This document shows positions 6,514 to 64,000 of a stretch of DNA of 64,000 nt, one piece after another. Position 1 is the stretch's first letter; each line of letters starts with the position of its first letter. The stretch comes from Balneola sp. Its GTDB lineage: Bacteria > Bacteroidota > Rhodothermia > Balneolales > Balneolaceae. The notes beneath the pieces were generated by a model. It did no database searches. It was given only the letters and a program-made list of their open reading frames with translations, and had not been told where the DNA came from. A program made the translations under genes and the position numbers. Location of the stretch: the NCBI GenBank assembly GCA_003712055.1, contig RHLJ01000007.1:1-64000 (forward strand). The letters are read 5' to 3'.

Positions 6514-7923
6514 TTGAGTAAGCTAAAAAGATATCGTGAGGTAATATTTACCAGCTTGATGGATTTTCTGATAGTCTTGGCAAGTTGGTTCATTTTCCAC
6601 ATTTTCTTTACAGAAAGTATTGATATGTACCTGAGACATTTCAATATAGATCTCGTAACTGCAGGCGTATCTGTATGTTCATATTGGATTTTGGTTTTTG
6701 TGGTATCCGGGCTTTATAAGAAATTGTACCTGGTTTCCAGATTGGATGAGTTTTTTAAAGTATTTAAATCCACTTCTGTAGGTGCTCTGATACTCTATTT
6801 TATCTGGGATTTTGGTGATTCAGCCTCCTTTTCAGTAGATCGGAATCTCATCTTTTTTTATTGGGTATTCGTTTTTGGTTTTACGGCTATAAATCGATTT
6901 ATAATCCGTACAGTGCAAAGAGTATATGCGCAAAGAGGAAGAGGTCTTCACAGAACCATTATTGTAGGTACCGGGAGACATGCTAAAGTTGCATATGATG
7001 ATCTAATGCGTAATAAAACACTGGGTATGGAGGTGTTAGGATACATCCAGGTTAATGGAAAGTCAGTAGATCCCGAATCTGGAATTCAAAAAGAAGAAGT
7101 GATCGGGCATCTTGAGAATATTTCTAAGATCATTGAATCCCGACAGATACAGGATATCCTTGTTGCTGTTGAGCCGGAAAGGAAAAGAGATTTAGTACAG
7201 GTAATCTCACAGGTGGATCATCCCGATGTAACACTCAAACTCCTACCAGATTTCTATCAACTCGTAAGTGGTTTAAACAAGACCAACCAGATTTTTGGAA
7301 TGCCCTTGATTGAAATTTCTCCCGAACCAATGCCACTTTGGGAGAAGGCAATTAAGAGATTGTTGGATGTCACAGTTTCTGTGGTGGTACTTACTCTCGC
7401 GATTCCTTTTTGGGGTATTATTGCACTTTTGATAAAAATGGATTCTTCAGGGCCGGTAATCTATCATCAAAAAAGAGTGGGGAGAAGGGGGCGGCCATTT
7501 ACGATTTTTAAGTTTAGAACCATGTACCAGGATGCCGAATCTAAAACCGGTCCAACATGGGCAAAGGAAAATGATCCTAGGGTAACAAGAGTTGGTTATT
7601 GGTTAAGGAAATTGAGACTTGATGAAATTCCTCAGCTTTGGAATGTATTAAGAGGTACAATGAGTCTCGTTGGGCCTCGTCCCGAAAGGCCACACTTTGT
7701 AGAACAATTCAAACATCAGATACCACTCTATACCCGAAGATTGAGAGTAAGACCGGGTATTACCGGCTGGGCACAAGTAAAATGGAAGTACGATTCCTCT
7801 CTCGATGATGTAAAAGAGAAAACTAAATACGATCTCTTTTATGTAGAGAACATTTCGTTAAAAATGGATATGAAAATTCTCATTATCACTGTTCTCACAA
7901 TGATTAAAGGCAAGGGGTTCTAA
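6514..7923 (+). CDS. Exopolysaccharide polyprenyl glycosylphosphotransferase (WcaJ/WbaP-like)
   Basis: This 469-residue membrane enzyme should transfer a sugar-1-phosphate from a UDP-sugar to undecaprenyl phosphate, the first step of capsule or exopolysaccharide repeat-unit synthesis. About four N-terminal helices (residues ~10-125) precede a CoA-binding_3-like Rossmann domain (~145-260) and the catalytic domain (~275-469). The catalytic domain has KRLLDVTVS, GPVIYHQKRVGRRGRPF, KFRTM, LDEIPQLWNVLRG, MSLVGPRPERP and RPGITGWAQV. All key motifs are intact, unlike in the fusion at 3221-5293. The start is TTG: the ATG at 6498 is out of frame and stops quickly. The next gene begins immediately after the stop. 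Confidence 0.92.
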   Translation: MSKLKRYREVIFTSLMDFLIVLASWFIFHIFFTESIDMYLRHFNIDLVTAGVSVCSYWILVFVVSGLYKKLYLVSRLDEFFKVFKSTSVGALILYFIWDFGDSASFSVDRNLIFFYWVFVFGFTAINRFIIRTVQRVYAQRGRGLHRTIIVGTGRHAKVAYDDLMRNKTLGMEVLGYIQVNGKSVDPESGIQKEEVIGHLENISKIIESRQIQDILVAVEPERKRDLVQVISQVDHPDVTLKLLPDFYQLVSGLNKTNQIFGMPLIEISPEPMPLWEKAIKRLLDVTVSVVVLTLAIPFWGIIALLIKMDSSGPVIYHQKRVGRRGRPFTIFKFRTMYQDAESKTGPTWAKENDPRVTRVGYWLRKLRLDEIPQLWNVLRGTMSLVGPRPERPHFVEQFKHQIPLYTRRLRVRPGITGWAQVKWKYDSSLDDVKEKTKYDLFYVENISLKMDMKILIITVLTMIKGKGF

Positions 7924-57444: not shown

Positions 57445-58448
57445 GAATACTATACGGAGTACAAGGAACCGGACATGGTCATATAAGTCGGGCCAGAGTT
57501 GTGCTTCCAAAGCTGCGGGAGTATGCAGAGGTAGATGTACTTATAAGCGGATATAACTTCCACATGGACCTCGATGGAGAGATAGCTTATAAAGCCCGGG
57601 GAATTAGCCTTACCTACGACAGCAAGGGTAGTGTGGATTTTTTAGAGACGGCACTCAATTTAAAACCGGTAAAATTCATACAGGATATTCAATCTGTTCC
57701 CCTGGAGGAATACGATTTTGTCGTAAATGATTTCGAGCCAGTCACAGCCTGGGCTGCTCAAACAGCTGGAGTTAATTGTGTAGGTATCAGTCATCAAGCG
57801 GCCTTTATGTCTCCAAATGTACCTAGGCCTCAAAAAAAGTCGCTAATGGCAGAAGGAGTGATGAAACATTTTGCTCCTTTTTCGGTTCCCGTGGGTTCTC
57901 ATTATTTACGCTACGATGATTTTATTGAACCTCCAATTATCAGAAAGCAAATCAAGGAACTGAATCCTTTTCAGGGAGATCACATCACGGTTTACCTTCC
58001 TGCATTCGATCATGAAACTCTCAGTTCTGTGTTTAATCAGGTAAAGCAGGTGCAATGGCATATTTTTTCTCCCACTTGTGATGAGCCTTACGAAAAAGGG
58101 AATGTATATATTCGCCCAATTGGAAAGGATAGTTTCCTAAAGAGCTTCGAAAGCTGTTTAGGTGTAGTTTCATCTACTGGATTTGAAACCACTTCGGAAT
58201 CAATGTTTTTGGGCAAAAGACTACTGACCATTCCTATCAGAAACCAATATGAACAATTATGTAATGCAGCCGCACTTGAGAAGTTAGGCGGGAGTGTTAT
58301 TTATAACATTGATGGCTCTTTCAAAACTAAAGTAAGCGACTGGATTCTAAATGGGGAAGCATTGGAGCTCCCTGAAATATCTGACGAAGATGTGCTCGTC
58401 AATAAGATCCTTACTGCAGGAATAGGGGAAGAGGTGGAGCTTTCTTGA
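57441..58448 (+). CDS. GT-B glycosyltransferase (MurG/MJ1255-like)
   Basis: The 335-residue protein starts with a GT-B glycine-rich loop (ILYGVQGTGHGHISRARVVLPKL). The C-terminal half has the UDP-sugar region, VVSSTGFETTSESMFLGKRLLTIPIRNQYEQLCNAAAL, matching the nucleotide-diphosphate-sugar site of GT28/MurG-like enzymes. It overlaps the phosphoesterase gene by 4 bases. The pair may add sugar to, and trim, a lipid-linked glycolipid, but this is inference. Confidence 0.83.
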   Translation: MRILYGVQGTGHGHISRARVVLPKLREYAEVDVLISGYNFHMDLDGEIAYKARGISLTYDSKGSVDFLETALNLKPVKFIQDIQSVPLEEYDFVVNDFEPVTAWAAQTAGVNCVGISHQAAFMSPNVPRPQKKSLMAEGVMKHFAPFSVPVGSHYLRYDDFIEPPIIRKQIKELNPFQGDHITVYLPAFDHETLSSVFNQVKQVQWHIFSPTCDEPYEKGNVYIRPIGKDSFLKSFESCLGVVSSTGFETTSESMFLGKRLLTIPIRNQYEQLCNAAALEKLGGSVIYNIDGSFKTKVSDWILNGEALELPEISDEDVLVNKILTAGIGEEVELS

Positions 58449-58455
58449 ACTAAAC

Positions 58456-58497
58456 ATTGAACATAGAACTTCGAAGTTCATTTGTTCAAAGTTCAAT
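58456..58497. terminator. Nested inverted repeat between convergent genes (candidate terminator)
   Basis: Outer arms ATTGAAC / GTTCAAT enclose a perfect 14-base palindrome GAACTTCGAAGTTC (58466-58479). The element fills the 58-base gap between the convergent glycosyltransferase and DinB-like genes. There is no long T tract, so termination is inferred from place and fold. Confidence 0.55.
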
Positions 58498-58506
58498 TCC
58501 TTCTTC

Positions 58507-59031
58507 CTAAAGGTATCTCTCGTTCATAATTGAAACGTGGTGGGCAACATGACCTACAATAATGAAAGCCAATGCTCTTACAGTAACATCCATACCGCTC
58601 GCATTTCCTTGACGCGAGATCATTTCCTTAGTCATGCTGTCAAATAAGTGGATAGTGGAAACCCTTACTGCCAGGAATTCATTGGCAAGATTACTTAATT
58701 CTCTACTGTTATAATTGTTCTCAGCCATGTATATGTCCTGATCCATTCCAGGTAAGGCTTGTTCATCTCCTCTGCTTATGGCAAAGGCTCTATAGCTAAA
58801 CAAACGCTCTGCTTCAATCATATGTCCAAATACTTCTTTGATAGTCCACTTATCAGGAGCATATTTGAAATACGCCTTATCTCCAGGTATAGAATTAGCT
58901 AAAGTAAATAAGTTGTGCATTTGTTTATTGAGAGTATGAATAACATTCCCTTTTTTTACATGACTCACATAAGTAGAATAAAAGTGCGCGTATTCTGAAG
59001 AATCAGGATACTCATCTTCCCAAATTTCCAT
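58507..59031 (-). CDS. DinB-like (DinB_2) family protein
   Basis: The 174-residue protein has the DinB/YfiT four-helix-bundle layout: DKWTIKEVFGHMIEAERLFSYRAFAISRG with the first metal His, and AFIIVGHVAHHVSIMNERY with the other two. Members bind a divalent metal and include thiol-dependent S-transferases (bacillithiol or mycothiol types), but the substrate here is unknown. It is monocistronic. Confidence 0.86.
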   Translation of the reverse strand: MEIWEDEYPDSSEYAHFYSTYVSHVKKGNVIHTLNKQMHNLFTLANSIPGDKAYFKYAPDKWTIKEVFGHMIEAERLFSYRAFAISRGDEQALPGMDQDIYMAENNYNSRELSNLANEFLAVRVSTIHLFDSMTKEMISRQGNASGMDVTVRALAFIIVGHVAHHVSIMNERYL

Positions 59032-59201
59032 GGTGTACTTGGTTTAAATTGAGATTCTTTTCAATGTATATAAGCTTAATTGAAGAACCAATATTTGATT
59101 CAAGACTAGAGTTCATAAAAAGTAAAATGCACAGGTTTTCGTATCTTTATACGCTATCCATTTAGGGGCATTAAACCTACAGATTTGTAAAACGAAGTAA
59201 T

Positions 59202-60617
59202 ATGTTTTTTGAACAAGTATTTGAAGAGAAACTGGCACAATATGCATATGTAATTGGATGCCAAAAAACCGGCGAAGCTATTGTTATAGATCCTATGCGG
59301 GATATTGATCGATATGAGAAACTTGCATCAAAGCATGGTCTTAGCATTGTTGCAGCTGGTGAGACTCATATTCATGCCGATTACCTTTCCGGATTGAGAG
59401 AGTATACTGAAAGAGGAGTGAAAGTTTATGCTTCGGATGAAGGAGACCAGGATTGGAAATATGAATGGTTGATTGGAAGCCAATATGATTACCAATTACT
59501 TAAAGATGGTGATCAGTTCAGTATTGGGAATATCCGCTTTGATGTACTTTACACCCCGGGCCATACTCCTGAACACATCAGTTTTTTAGTTACGGATGGT
59601 GCTGCTACAGATGAGCCAATGGGCATTCTGTCTGGTGATTTTGTTTTTGTAGGAGATGTAGGTCGTCCGGACTTATTAGAAACCGCTGCAGGTCTTGAAG
59701 GATCTATGGAAACTTCTGCGAAGACTTTATATAAATCCATTGAAAAGTTTAAAACCATGCCAGACTATCTTCAATTATGGCCAGGTCATGGTGCTGGAAG
59801 TGCATGTGGGAAGGCTTTGGGAGCAGTTCCTAAATCGACAATTGGCTATGAGCAACGGTTCAACACTTCGATAAAATCGGCGATTACAGAAAAGGATTTT
59901 GTGGATTACATCCTGGATGGGCAACCAGAACCCCCGCTCTATTTTGCGAGAATGAAGAGGGATAACAAGAAAGGTCCAAAGGTTCTTGGGCAACTTCCTA
60001 ATCCAAAGAGATTATCTATCGAAGAAATTGTAAAGAGTACCGCTACAGATTCAGCAGTTGTACTAGATACCAGAAATCGTACTGAGTTTATGGCTGGTCA
60101 TCTTAAAAATTCCTTGTTGGCTACACTAAAAAAAGACTTTAATACCATCGCGGGTTCTTACATAACGGAACATCAGGATATATACTTAATTGCTGATGAG
60201 TCACAAATTGAAGAGGCCGTAACCGATCTAATACGTGTAGGGTTAGATAACATCAAAGGATATGCAACTCCCGAGGATATAATTAAATCAGGTGTTGAGC
60301 TGGTTTCTACGGAAACGATTGACTTTGAAGATGTGGACAGTCTAATGGCCCAGGGAGAGGCAACATTATTAGATGCTCGAAAAAAATCTGAATTTGATCT
60401 AGGTCATCATCCTGATGCAATTAATATTTCTCATACCAGATTGCTTGATCGATTTGAAGAGATTCCAACAGAAAAGCCAGTCCTCATTCATTGTAAATCC
60501 GGAAACAGAGCTTCATTCGCATCTGCTTTGCTAGAGTCAAAAGGGTATGAAGTGAAGTATGTAGATGACAACGTAGAGCCCTGGCTGGAAAAGAATAACC
60601 TGATGATCGAGGCGTAA
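59202..60617 (+). CDS. CstB-like persulfide dioxygenase with two rhodanese domains
   Basis: The 471-residue protein joins an MBL-fold dioxygenase domain (~1-245; GETHIHADYLSG, TPGHTPEHISF, SGDFVFVGDVGRPDLL, LWPGHGAGS) to two rhodanese domains. The first (~275-365) lacks the active-site Cys and is a pseudo-rhodanese. The second (~375-470) has the active loop HCKSGNRAS. This MBL / pseudo-rhodanese / rhodanese order is that of CstB, which oxidises persulfides to thiosulfate with non-haem iron. The gene is one base upstream of a TauE exporter gene, consistent with sulfide detoxification. No cstR or sqr is visible. Confidence 0.9.
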   Translation: MFFEQVFEEKLAQYAYVIGCQKTGEAIVIDPMRDIDRYEKLASKHGLSIVAAGETHIHADYLSGLREYTERGVKVYASDEGDQDWKYEWLIGSQYDYQLLKDGDQFSIGNIRFDVLYTPGHTPEHISFLVTDGAATDEPMGILSGDFVFVGDVGRPDLLETAAGLEGSMETSAKTLYKSIEKFKTMPDYLQLWPGHGAGSACGKALGAVPKSTIGYEQRFNTSIKSAITEKDFVDYILDGQPEPPLYFARMKRDNKKGPKVLGQLPNPKRLSIEEIVKSTATDSAVVLDTRNRTEFMAGHLKNSLLATLKKDFNTIAGSYITEHQDIYLIADESQIEEAVTDLIRVGLDNIKGYATPEDIIKSGVELVSTETIDFEDVDSLMAQGEATLLDARKKSEFDLGHHPDAINISHTRLLDRFEEIPTEKPVLIHCKSGNRASFASALLESKGYEVKYVDDNVEPWLEKNNLMIEA

Positions 60618-60618
60618 C

Positions 60619-61389
60619 ATGTTTTGGGCCTGGTTGGGAGCATTAGTAATTGGGTTATCTCTTGGACTATTAGGATCAGGGGGCTCGATTCTTACAGTAC
60701 CAGTACTTATTTATCTGGTTGACCAGCCTGAAAAAGTGGCTATAGCTGAATCACTTGGGATCGTTGCTTCCATTAGTTTATTTGGGGCTATCCCTTATGC
60801 ATGGCGCAAGGAAATAGATTGGAAAAGCGTGCTATGGTTTGGTGTTCCGGGAATGGTAGGAACTTATTATGGGGCGACACTCTCTCAGTTTCTTTCAGGG
60901 AATTCCCAATTAATCATTTTTGCGATAGTAATGCTTTTAGCTGCTTTTTTAATGGTGAAGGATAATCCGCGCCTGAAAAAGGAGAAAGGGTATTCTGCTC
61001 CTCGATATATACTCATCCTGGAAGGTGCTATCGTCGGGATAGTTACCGGATTAGTAGGAGTAGGTGGAGGATTCTTGATCATACCGGCGCTGGTTTTATT
61101 CGGTGGATTAAAAATGAGGATCGCTGTTGGAACAAGCCTTACTATTATCGCAGCAAAGAGTTTTATCGGTTTCTATAAATATCTGGATGTGCTCCGAGTT
61201 GAGAAGCTGAATATTGATTGGGAACTACTGGCAATTTTCACCGCCATAGGAATTATCGGTAGTATGGTTGGTGGAAGACTAAGTAAAAAGGTACCTCAGA
61301 AATCACTAAAGAAGGGATTTGGAGTATTCTTGATTGGCATGGGTGCTTTTATCCTCTGGAGTAATCTGTCTAAGACCTTTATGGTTTAG
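60619..61389 (+). CDS. TauE/SafE family sulfite/sulfur-anion exporter
   Basis: The 256-residue protein has about eight membrane helices and the two TauE inverted-repeat signatures: LGSGGSILTVPVLIYLV near the start and GLVGVGGGFLIIPALVLFGG in the second half. It probably exports sulfite or thiosulfate made by the upstream enzyme, as tauE does in staphylococcal cst loci. It starts one base after the CstB-like stop. Confidence 0.9.
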   Translation: MFWAWLGALVIGLSLGLLGSGGSILTVPVLIYLVDQPEKVAIAESLGIVASISLFGAIPYAWRKEIDWKSVLWFGVPGMVGTYYGATLSQFLSGNSQLIIFAIVMLLAAFLMVKDNPRLKKEKGYSAPRYILILEGAIVGIVTGLVGVGGGFLIIPALVLFGGLKMRIAVGTSLTIIAAKSFIGFYKYLDVLRVEKLNIDWELLAIFTAIGIIGSMVGGRLSKKVPQKSLKKGFGVFLIGMGAFILWSNLSKTFMV

Positions 61390-61398
61390 TTTTTTTAG

Positions 61399-61423
61399 GT
61401 CATCCCGGACTTGATCCGGGATC
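61399..61423. repeat. Short hairpin repeat GTCATCCCGGACTTGATCCG type
   Basis: The stem ATCCCGGA (61402-61409) / TCCGGGAT (61415-61422) has a CTTGA loop. It shares only the GTCATCC start with the four-copy hairpin family and looks like a second type of dispersed palindrome common in bacterial intergenic gaps. It lies after the TauE gene, before the convergent permease. Confidence 0.7.
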
Positions 61424-61475
61424 TGTGAAGCCGGATTCTTTGACTAAAGAGAAGGAGAAATTACAATCGGGCTCC

Positions 61476-62768
61476 CTAGTCCCTAACCTGCTTCCTACCA
61501 ATCCAATACAAAATTGAACCTACCGCGATAAAAAGAGCAGTCATCCAAATGTTCTTCAGGCTCACCTGGAACATCAGCCAAAGGCAGGCTAAAATCCCAA
61601 GAACGGGTATAGTATAACCTCCTTTTAGAGTAAAGGTATTCTCACCTTTAAACTTCGGGCGGAGTTTTGGTACAGCTGCACAAGTGATGATATAGAAGAA
61701 CACCCGAGAAAGAACGGTCATGGCCGCCAATGCAGTAAAAGAACCCAAAGCAGCACCGATAAAAGAAAAAACCCCAAAGAAAATCACTGAATTTGAGGGT
61801 GTTAGGAATTTGGAATGAACTTTTCCAAACCAGTTAGGGAGTGATTTATCAAGAGAAAGGGCATAGGTAAGCCGGGGAGTAGAGAACATATTACTAACCA
61901 GGTTTCCGGTCACAGAAGTTGCTACTCCAATCATAAGTATCACAGCACCTATTTCTCCAAATAAGGCCGAAGATGCATCCAGTAGTGGAGAAGTTGAAGA
62001 AGCTAAATCAGGGACTGCTGCCTCTGCTACAAGCTGGATAAGCATATAGAGAATTACAATAGAACCTAAACCAAGAATCAGTGCTCTGGGCATATCTCGT
62101 TCAGGATTCTTGGTTTCACCGGCAGGGACAACACCTCCTTCAAAACCTACGAAAGCATATATAAGCAGAAGGGTAGCAGCCCCAAGGTTTTCAGTAATTG
62201 GTTGCTGTGATTCGAAAGAAGGCAGAATTTCACCACCAAGCATCACCAACCCACCAAATACCAGCATGATGAGTACAGAAAATTTTAAGACAGTAAAGGC
62301 AGCAAGTGAACGAATTGATTCAACGGAGCCAAGCACATTGACAAAGGTAAGTGCTCCACAAATAATAGCCAGAGAGATAATACGTCCAATACCTTCACCA
62401 GCAGGAGCATAAAAATATCCTATACTTTCGACCAGGAGAACGGAATTAGCAGCAAAGGAAATCATCCGAGCCATGTAGTACAGCCATCCACTTTGGAATC
62501 CGATGAAAGGGCCGAAAGCTTCTGTACCATATCTAACAGGGCCACCTGTACCTCTGAAGTAGCTACCCAATTCAGCAAAGCTGAGAATTACAGGCAAGAT
62601 AAGAATAGCACAGAAGGCATAAATCCATACGCTGTAAGATCCTGCCAGGGCATTTGCTCCACTAGGAAGTCCAAAAATACCCGCCCCGATTAACCCATTT
62701 ACAACAAGAAGCCAAATTCCCCAGGTTCCAAGTTTTCGGGGTAGTTTTTCTTTGGTGGATGTATTCAT
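61476..62768 (-). CDS. APC family amino-acid permease
   Basis: The 430-residue protein has about twelve helices and the APC markers LGTWGIWLLVVNGLIGAGIFGLPSG (helix 1 with the GxG substrate break), GGPVRYGTEAFGPFIGFQSGWLYY and FVGFEGGVVPAGETKNPERDMPRA (helix 6). It imports or exchanges amino acids or polyamines; the substrate cannot be set. It is transcribed alone, and the 580-base region upstream of its start holds the structured element described below. Confidence 0.9.
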   Translation of the reverse strand: MNTSTKEKLPRKLGTWGIWLLVVNGLIGAGIFGLPSGANALAGSYSVWIYAFCAILILPVILSFAELGSYFRGTGGPVRYGTEAFGPFIGFQSGWLYYMARMISFAANSVLLVESIGYFYAPAGEGIGRIISLAIICGALTFVNVLGSVESIRSLAAFTVLKFSVLIMLVFGGLVMLGGEILPSFESQQPITENLGAATLLLIYAFVGFEGGVVPAGETKNPERDMPRALILGLGSIVILYMLIQLVAEAAVPDLASSTSPLLDASSALFGEIGAVILMIGVATSVTGNLVSNMFSTPRLTYALSLDKSLPNWFGKVHSKFLTPSNSVIFFGVFSFIGAALGSFTALAAMTVLSRVFFYIITCAAVPKLRPKFKGENTFTLKGGYTIPVLGILACLWLMFQVSLKNIWMTALFIAVGSILYWIGRKQVRD

Positions 62769-62861
62769 GGCCAGAAGTTAATCGATTACACTCATAAAAC
62801 TAGAAATGATTTATCGTTCTTTTGGACCGCTAAAAGTACATGGCCATCAAAACGGTTCTTT

Positions 62862-63231
62862 CTACTTTTGTACCGACAAAAGTAGCAAAAACTCCCGGCT
62901 ATGATTGCTTCCGGACATATAATCCTGCTCGTTCTACATAAAACCAAACGCTCGCAAGCGAGCAGGTTTTATGGTTTGAACTCACGATATGGATTATATG
63001 CTACCCCTCCATCAATCTAAGGCCGGATTATTAACGGCCTTTGAATTATAGGCGGAACAAGTGAGCTCATTTTTGAGCGTGACCAAAGGTCGAATAATTC
63101 CACACAGGCTCGATTAGAAAATATGTACGAATAGAATGAAGACCATTGGAATTATTCAGCGAGGAAATGGTGAACCCGCCTAGAATTCATAGCCTTGATT
63201 TTTTGGTACTTTTGCATCAAGGCAAAAGTAC
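62862..63231. other. Gene-free 370-bp element made of nested stem-loops with hairpin ends
   Basis: This stretch lacks a credible protein gene but is dense in exact inverted repeats. The left end is CTACTTTTGT / ACAAAAGTAG (62862-62885) and the right end is GTACTTTTGC / GCAAAAGTAC (63206-63231), two similar 10-bp hairpins. Between them lie CATATAATCC / GGATTATATG (62916-63000) around CATAAAACC / GGTTTTATG (62937-62973) and GCTCGC / GCGAGC. Further along are AAGGCCG / CGGCCTT (63019-63041), GCTCA / TGAGC (63065-63078), GACC / GGTC (63081-63091) and GAATAATTCCA / TGGAATTATTC (63092-63157). TAGGCGG / CCGCCTA encloses this last group. It may be a MITE-like element or a structured RNA. Confidence 0.7.
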
Positions 63232-63350
63232 AACACCCATCAACTGGTAGTTATAGTGGCTTCCAATCAACCATACATAATTTTACCTCATGGATTTATT
63301 AGGTCTCCTATTTTTGTTAGCGCTTTGTTTATACATACTAACTACTGATT

Positions 63351-64000
63351 TTGAAAAGAACTCGATCAATACTAATACTCTGTGGGGCATTACTTTTTAG
63401 TCAAAACCTAGCTGCATTTCAGGCTGTTGATGAGGTACAGAAAACCATCCAATCAACTCGATTGACCGCAGAAGAGAAAGCTGCATTTCGATTCGATGGA
63501 AATTTAAAAGAATCTTTTTGGCAATCTATTCCCTCTGCTTCTGGATTTACCCAACAATCACCGGTTGAAGGTGATCCGGCTACCGAGAGAACCGAAGTAA
63601 AAATAGCTTACGACGATAAGTATATGTACATAGGAGTTATTCTATATGATAGCGATCCGTCCCAAATCAAAGCATTTCAGAAACGAAGAGACCAGCGTAT
63701 TGTATCCGATGAACGTTTTGTCTGGATCTTTGACACGTTCAACGATCAACGGAATGCCTATTTCATGGAGATCAACCCAAATGGAATGAGAACCGATGGT
63801 TTGGTGAGTTCTGGTCAGGGTGGGGGCATCAATCTAAATTGGGACGGCATTTGGGATGCCCGGACTTATATCGGTGAATTCGGTTGGTCTGCGGAGATAA
63901 AAATCCCATTCGGTACCCTCAACTTTGATGAAAATAGCGATCACTGGGGGGTAAATTTTATGCGGGTGATCCGACGAAAAAATGAGACTGCTCTTTGGAC
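63351..64000 (+). CDS. CBM9/DUF5916-type exported protein, N-terminal part
   Basis: The frame is open from a TTG at 63351 to the window edge (at least 216 residues). An in-frame stop at 63339 limits the start, and no ATG occurs before the middle of the first domain, so TTG is chosen. A signal peptide (RSILILCGALLFSQNLAAFQA) precedes a carbohydrate-binding-family-9-like domain (FDGNLKESFWQSIP, TEVKIAYDDKYMYIGVILYDSDP, DERFVWIFDTFNDQRNAYFMEINPNG, WSAEIKIPFGTLNF). In Bacteroidota this opening usually leads to a DUF5916 outer-membrane barrel. The 3' end lies beyond the window. Confidence 0.83.
   Translation, partial: MKRTRSILILCGALLFSQNLAAFQAVDEVQKTIQSTRLTAEEKAAFRFDGNLKESFWQSIPSASGFTQQSPVEGDPATERTEVKIAYDDKYMYIGVILYDSDPSQIKAFQKRRDQRIVSDERFVWIFDTFNDQRNAYFMEINPNGMRTDGLVSSGQGGGINLNWDGIWDARTYIGEFGWSAEIKIPFGTLNFDENSDHWGVNFMRVIRRKNETALW

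Follow-up and report, generated by a model that had tools for sequence, protein, structure and literature searches.

MITEs and the folding bacterial repeats ERIC, Correia/NEMIS and RPE are non-autonomous elements with inverted ends and no gene. The attC sites of integrons are conserved in structure rather than in letters and are accompanied by a linked integrase, and the HEARO/OMEGA RNAs of IS200/IS605-type elements comprise a folded non-coding part of about 200 nt that often occurs without a protein of its own. According to the available part of PMC6006769, RAYT genes of subclass 2.6 have atypical structures of unspecified form alongside them, and the available part of PMC12306157 tabulates thousands of short REPs for two Flavobacterium genomes; both are compared with the present repeats by description only. 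No account of the repeat family described here was found in the literature searched, which included the available parts of PMC6006769, PMC3733652 and PMC12306157, with subscription papers lying outside the search.

The window, a stretch of 64,000 nucleotides of Balneola sp. DNA analysed as a whole, holds at positions 62862 to 63231 an element made of two units of one such family placed tail to tail (Table 1). The family plan is a non-coding repeat of about 80-250 nt in which a 5′ hairpin, CTTTTG-loop-CAAAAG, pairs through its loop with a downstream site to form a pseudoknot, and in which the pseudoknot site and A-run are followed by nested stems that form a rod, closed by G(G/A)C...G(T/C)C, the window units ending in AAGGCC. 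The pairing between loop and downstream site is CCG/CGG in type A, weaker than the CTTGAT/ATCAAG of type B. R1, a 42-position model of the 5′ module, scores unit A at 56.5 bits and unit B at 64.8 bits, and R2, a covariance model built from 21 Chryseobacterium-type units (18 from named Flavobacteriales and three from genome G176), matches both units end to end with the expected ends, at 46.6 bits (E 2.5e-9) and 53.8 bits (E 4.2e-11), respectively, part of these full-length scores being due to the 5′ module. Units of both types also stand alone (type A at loci L020, L022 and L027, type B at L019, L021 and L024), and the two halves of the element are found singly in relatives, the right half for example at G001:C2:551704-551900 and the left at G002:C1:3289647-3289800. 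The degenerate hairpin outside the element is possibly the remnant of a third unit placed head to head, an arrangement found elsewhere at L109 (genome G028) and L110 (genome G001). The upstream neighbour is an amino-acid permease gene on the minus strand (61476-62768, by Pfam) and the downstream neighbour starts at 63351 on the plus strand, so that both are transcribed away from the element; at the far end of the window, positions 1-82 are a 5S rRNA clipped by the window start.

Table 1. Coordinates of the two repeat units and their parts in the window.
Feature	Position	Strand	Description
Unit A	62861..63024	+	5′ hairpin followed by A-run, CTCCCGGC and nested stems as a rod-like body; 3′ end AAGGCCG
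Unit B	63036..63232	-	5′ hairpin (loop CCTTGAT) followed by A-run, ATCAAGGC and a rod body; 3′ end AAGGCC
Unit A 5′ hairpin, 10-bp stem	62862..62885 (arms 62862-62871/62876-62885)	+	Fold
Unit B 5′ hairpin, 10-bp stem	63206..63231 (arms 63206-63215/63222-63231)	-	Fold
Unit B pseudoknot	63194..63221	-	Loop CTTGAT (63216-63221) pairs with ATCAAG (63194-63199)
Unit A stems	62903..63017	+	62903-62907/63013-63017, 62916-62925/62991-63000, 62937-62945/62965-62973; DNA fold
Unit B stems	63042..63189	-	63042-63047/63184-63189, 63049-63055/63176-63182, 63093-63102/63147-63156; DNA fold, the same helices covary in A4
Tail-to-tail junction AAGGCCG-gattattaa-CGGCCTT	63019..63041	.	One letter changed in the 93% copy
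Degenerate extra hairpin outside the element	62816..62839	+	R1 partial match, 15.1 bits, E 0.012; weak

The preliminary description had recognised two 10-bp hairpins at the ends of the element, both of which are present where it placed them, and had read them as lying in the same orientation. They are in fact inverted, R1 matching 62861-62900 on the plus strand and 63191-63232 on the minus strand; as a perfect hairpin reads alike on both strands, its orientation must be taken from asymmetric neighbours, in this case the A-run and the loop partner. The further stems described between the end hairpins are real and appear in the DNA fold, with arms of 10, 10, 9, 7, 7, 6, 6, 5, 5 and 5 bp and several of 4 bp, and a repeat search of the window picks up the hairpin at the left end and one of the inner pairs. 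Folding of 386 bases under DNA parameters gives -70.8 kcal/mol against -37.9 +/- 4.1 kcal/mol for shuffled sequences (z -8.05, none of 100 shuffles equal), and under RNA parameters the z-scores are -7.78 for the plus strand, again with none of 100 shuffles equal, and -7.10 for the minus strand. The window contains two matches to the pattern TACTTTTG-N2-12-CAAAAGTA, and 100 shuffles contain none. Protein coding does not account for the element, as had been stated, since no ORF of at least 60 aa overlaps it in the region 58000-64000.

The earlier suggestion of a non-autonomous mobile element gains support from dispersed copies with unrelated flanks, an empty site in a relative and tens of copies in some other genomes. 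The genome of origin holds three dispersed copies (100, 93 and 79%) in unrelated surroundings. The 93% copy (C2:265278-265643) is alike over window positions 62865-63230, from hairpin to hairpin, and the likeness stops there; in the 79% copy (C2:270627-270985) the left half remains similar while the right half has diverged, and a further related unit lies at C5:204600. The recurrent sequence of these copies does not extend past the unit ends and no target-site duplication was seen at them; recurrent tails past the unit end do occur in genome G037 and perhaps in G010. In G011, which belongs to another genus, the transporter (83% identity) and the divergently transcribed neighbour (78% over 215 aa) are retained around an intergenic gap of 192 bp that lacks the element, compared with 582 bp in the window, the flanks being too diverged to fix the exact insertion point. 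The units are mostly intergenic, with 4 within an ORF and 126 between ORFs. Some units keep the same locus across several Chryseobacterium species, tandem copies included, which is unlike a fast mover. A single-copy region whose stems fail in relatives, which the preliminary description had named as the contrary outcome, is not what is found: the element is multicopy in its own and related genomes, and its stems hold in relatives through compensatory changes. An autonomous version with a gene between inverted ends was sought and rejected, as the pairs in G037, G025, L280, L246 and L267 enclose ordinary-looking genes. A phage or plasmid origin was likewise set aside, the window element having no phage match and one short plasmid match and the Chryseobacterium unit having neither; among viral contigs 16 stretches match, and some place units between phage genes, as in the provirus contigs L322 and L324, where the neighbouring genes are phage-like.

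The structure is conserved well beyond Balneola. Chryseobacterium-type units of about 203 nt have the same 5′ module and closing pairs together with two internal loops, CTAAAA/TTTTCTTAACG, and the smallest units, in Parabacteroides, retain within about 80 nt the hairpin, its loop partner and one stem. Over 90 loci (88 of the 120 named loci among the matches listed, plus two arrays), R2 has 96 matches with an E-value of 1e-8 or below. In A4, which comprises 8 of the 16 type-B units of set A2 picked for alignable bodies, 91.9% of cells are paired and 20 of 59 pairs show double changes; in A5, the 21 of 44 candidate units that are about 203 nt long, the corresponding values are 95.8% and 24 of 54. 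None of 500 shuffles is as high in either set, and sliding the structure along the alignment lowers pairing to 30-48% in A4 and 38-51% in A5. A6, counted on the best 66 of 96 rows and reduced to 41 non-redundant rows, has double changes in 39 of 49 pairs (479 double-changed cells). In the pseudoknot helix, 95.8% (A4) and 97.6% (A5) of cells are paired, but double changes are confined to one of the six pairs in each set. The stems are maintained by Watson-Crick replacements while the letters change, although perfect stems could also arise through hairpin-templated DNA repair with no need for selection. Taken together, these data settle that the units form a multicopy, phylum-wide family conserved in structure and represented in the window by an A/B composite.

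The family is widely distributed. By blastn, copies are present in 36 of 97 relatives, and the 5′ module (R1) is found in 43 of 58 family genomes, with up to 49 copies per genome, and at E 1e-4 or better in 112 of 392 phylum-sample genomes and 51 of 178 genera; the blastn count and both R1 genome counts include the genome of origin, the latter under strict filters. A pattern scan finds at least 120 stretches in named genomes of Balneolaceae, Flavobacteriales, Sphingobacteriaceae, Chitinophagales, Saprospiraceae, Cyclobacteriaceae and Bacteroidales. Among the matches listed, the Flavobacteriales include Chryseobacterium, Flavobacterium, Capnocytophaga and Elizabethkingia, and there are a few outliers, e.g., Propionigenium, Neomarinimicrobiota and a Patescibacteria MAG. 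Units stand alone, form tail-to-tail or head-to-head pairs, or follow one another in tandem. For annotation purposes, the family accounts for many of the repeats found between genes in Chryseobacterium, Flavobacterium, Balneola and their relatives.

In Balneola, units also travel as passengers. In Balneola sp. EhC07 (G057) and in genomes G018 and G028, many copies lie inside an element of 520-580 bp with inverted ends TGTAGATGTTAGATAATTC, usually in the order A(-), spacer, B(+). The same ends also bound an ORF of 97 aa of the GIY-YIG type (L312, L313, L315 and L317 by eye, with Pfam run on L317), and an empty form of 147 bp without cargo is present at L319. As this element holds a GIY-YIG gene, units or nothing, the units within it are cargo carried by another element, and the TGTAGATGTTAGATAATTC-bounded copies were rejected as the true mobile unit; the 5-bp repeat CCGTT at the ends of the L139 copy belongs to the larger element. 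By coordinates, Y1 genes lie about 1.5 kb from copies of the TGTAGATGTTAGATAATTC element in four genomes, a link that was dropped because three ordinary-looking genes intervene in the two cases read (L078, L079). In L006, from the genome of origin, and in several G057 copies, a GGCGCC/GGAGCC-type insert with a hairpin replaces one arm of the 5′ hairpin, a recurrent swap.

The neighbourhoods of the units yield several observations in their own right. Among 525 neighbouring ORFs, the 15 largest clusters contain no linked mobile gene save a recombinase group at 3 loci; by eye, ABC proteins form the largest, at 11 loci, followed by a sugar-nucleotide enzyme and a Chryseobacterium gene at 5 each, and the others are host-like groups together with one group of four ORFs that overlap the units themselves. 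At L019, positions 1823-1879 match the Rfam whalefall-1 RNA (54.6 bits) about 120 nt outside a unit. RAYTs of the YIHYNPVKAGF type (L052 at 6928-7461, L083, L084, L088, L090, L092, L093, L096 and L097) have in their flanks a double hairpin of another kind (CTCGTTCCG.AGCTC...CGGAA-like plus GGAGC...GCTCC-like), which is probably the atypical REP of subclass 2.6. Y1_Tnp matches also fall within open frames of 767-1219 aa that are possibly fusions to another protein (G011:C33:94827, G036:C10:273572, G018:C21:83598). In Flavobacterium petrolei (L263), units in one orientation lie between the genes of a polysaccharide-like locus.

The interpretation to which we lean, at close to an even chance, is a REP/MITE-like non-autonomous repeat that folds as a single strand or cruciform and is moved by an enzyme acting in trans. 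Such an enzyme would recognise the folded single strand (or cruciform), the pseudoknotted hairpin would serve as the recognition end, and the two inverted ends would make the window composite a mobile unit of about 366 bp. More tentatively, constraint may act on the strand complementary to the hairpin-first one, and copies may be retained preferentially downstream of genes, where the complement is transcribed and might help to end transcripts. A candidate source of the enzyme is a Y1/HUH transposase, either a RAYT or an IS200-like TnpA, that nicks folded lagging-strand DNA at the hairpins of a REP-type repeat (Quentin et al. 2018, PMC6006769, in its available part), and the joint occurrence of Y1_Tnp genes and units across 58 genomes (both in 38, units only in 5, Y1 only in 2, neither in 13) is in line with it. 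This co-occurrence may, however, reflect genome size, with small genomes lacking both, and genomes G007 and G041 hold 4 and 5 units with no Y1 match. Movement by a RAYT, as proposed in the preliminary description, finds no support: by eye, the flanks of 16 subclass-2.6-type RAYT loci (about 380 nt upstream and 330 nt downstream) hold no unit, and about 10 of them carry a different double hairpin, CTCGTTCCG...CGGAA-like. Only 3 of 206 unit-bearing loci, some of which overlap, contain a RAYT (at 0.4, 2 and 5 kb); the RAYT at L093 has a unit pair about 0.8 kb away. A regular expression matches 3 of 32 Y1 loci, and of these only L072 is unit-like, about 440 bp off. A short hairpin with a conserved 5′ foot tetranucleotide of the GTAG/GGAG type is absent from the units by eye, the letters 5′ of the hairpin being variable, and orientation relative to replication is even, with 37 of 67 clusters on the leading and 30 on the lagging strand (57:41 of all 98 matches) in nine one-contig genomes, the origin being taken at dnaA and rounded lengths being used for six of the nine. 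A Y1/HUH enzyme therefore seems quite improbable to us. Recombination as folded single strands in the manner of attC sites, with units ending exchangeable gene cassettes, draws on an uncultured Parabacteroides contig (L223, 1047-7400) in which six minimal units, all pointing one way, are interspersed with small genes, among which Pfam identifies nucleotidyltransferases, HepT-like and AAA-ATPase/PDDEXK proteins and, below the cut-off, a nucleotidyltransferase substrate-binding-like protein. By this annotation the gene set resembles toxin-antitoxin or defence cassettes; a SIR2 label given by eye to one of the genes was withdrawn, as no Pfam family matched. Units in one orientation also lie between polysaccharide-like genes, on the same strand as the genes, in G383:C5 and G154:C19 (L302-L304). 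Across the family, however, 100 of the 120 named loci among the matches listed hold a single unit, only 3 of 149 loci have a tyrosine-recombinase-like gene 2.5 kb or less away (two confirmed by Pfam) and most neighbours resemble ordinary host genes, which makes an attC-like role very unlikely.

Whether the folded molecule is DNA or RNA bears on the two remaining explanations, and the mismatches within the stems are informative in this respect. Covariation is usually read as a sign of RNA, and here strong covariation is accompanied by little wobble: in A6 (41 rows, 49 pairs, 1887 cells), 91.4% of cells are Watson-Crick, 1.3% G-U (24), 2.0% A-C (38) and 5.4% other. When all mismatches are treated alike, in family units found by regular expression and thinned to 34 from Balneolaceae and 94 others, the hairpin-first strand shows 25 G-U against 61 A-C, made up of 7 and 15 in Balneolaceae (p 0.13) and 18 and 46 in the others (p 6e-4); A5 shows 7 and 16, and the recent G057 copies, with small numbers of distinct one-side changes, 2 and 6. 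Folds made under RNA rules reverse the ratio in Balneolaceae sets, with G-U/A-C cells of 24/9 in G057, 38/7 in G037 and 16/1 in G010, and in A4 under an RNA-rule fold there are 21 G-U and 11 A-C, 16 of the 21 falling in three columns in which G-U is commonest. The excess of A-C suggests that the hairpin-first strand lacks the G-U preference expected of a conserved RNA, whereas the same excess reads as G-U in the complement and fits a fold there, as single-stranded DNA or as RNA; it weakens the DNA reading and strengthens that of an RNA from the complementary strand at the 3′ ends of genes. We nevertheless lean towards DNA, by reason solely of the low total wobble in the sequences. The combination of strong covariation, little wobble and a residue of wobble that points to the complement of the obvious strand makes the question directly testable. 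The large structured RNA offered as the second option in the preliminary description thus retains its conserved structure, and any such RNA would be the complement. An RNA gene read from the hairpin-first strand has in its favour the strong covariation, the internal-loop letters, which when conserved are typical of RNA motifs, and the tandem copies that several Chryseobacterium species have at corresponding loci; the mismatch counts given above for A5, A6 and the mismatch-neutral set speak against it, as do the lack of any Rfam match to the element or units at gathering scores (one chance-level match, E 0.99) and a gene context that is not fixed, and we regard it as highly improbable, the least probable of the explanations considered. 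A 3′-end element or terminator, in which an RNA made from the complement downstream of genes takes up the fold and spread is incidental or tolerated, accommodates the wobble polarity, the T-rich complement of the A-run, which follows the rod (in Parabacteroides, directly the 10-bp stem), and the gene context. In the 149 loci, with the count restricted to units flanked on each side by an ORF of 100 aa or more, the 3′-side gene points towards the unit in 84 of 126 cases, the strand pairs being (-,-) 50, (+,-) 34, (+,+) 25 and (-,+) 17. Against it, a terminator scan of the window flags none at the unit ends, both genes next to the element point away from it, the units of G383 and G154 lie on the gene strand, the rods are long and branched, the median distance from hairpin to facing gene is 387 nt, and the wobble polarity possibly stems from strand-biased mutation; it appears quite unlikely, if a shade less so than a Y1/HUH enzyme. 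The favoured interpretation, a trans-mobilised folded repeat, could have a broader form, doubtful but conceivable, in which the units are phylum-wide folded-DNA elements whose pseudoknotted single-stranded hairpin is read by a trans-acting enzyme unknown to date, with structure rather than sequence being inherited, and which punctuate arrays of exchangeable genes in some lineages. If an enzyme reads the fold, a mobility or recombination system with no known enzyme would extend across much of the phylum.

Compared with described systems, the units resemble HEARO/OMEGA RNAs in having a folded non-coding part of about 200 nt in a mobile context, and differ in having no Rfam match and no recurrent nuclease gene nearby. 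With attC sites they share conservation of structure over letters and, in some arrays, a fixed orientation, but most loci lack a linked integrase, the copies are mostly single and the architecture is another. The window composite is like MITEs, ERIC, Correia/NEMIS and RPE in being non-autonomous, in having terminal inverted repeats, a property of the composite only, and in carrying no gene; unlike MITEs, the units show no autonomous partner or target-site duplication, and their body is conserved as a paired structure throughout the phylum. REP/BIME repeats and their RAYTs, represented in Bacteroidetes by subclass 2.6, are alike in being non-coding, intergenic, multicopy and folded and in occurring both as singles and as inverted pairs, according to the available part of PMC6006769. 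REPs flank RAYT genes in the REPtron arrangement, where the units are not found, and a REP as characterised in that part is a hairpin of 21-65 nt with a foot tetranucleotide, whereas the present units extend over 80-250 nt and combine a pseudoknotted end with a branched rod.
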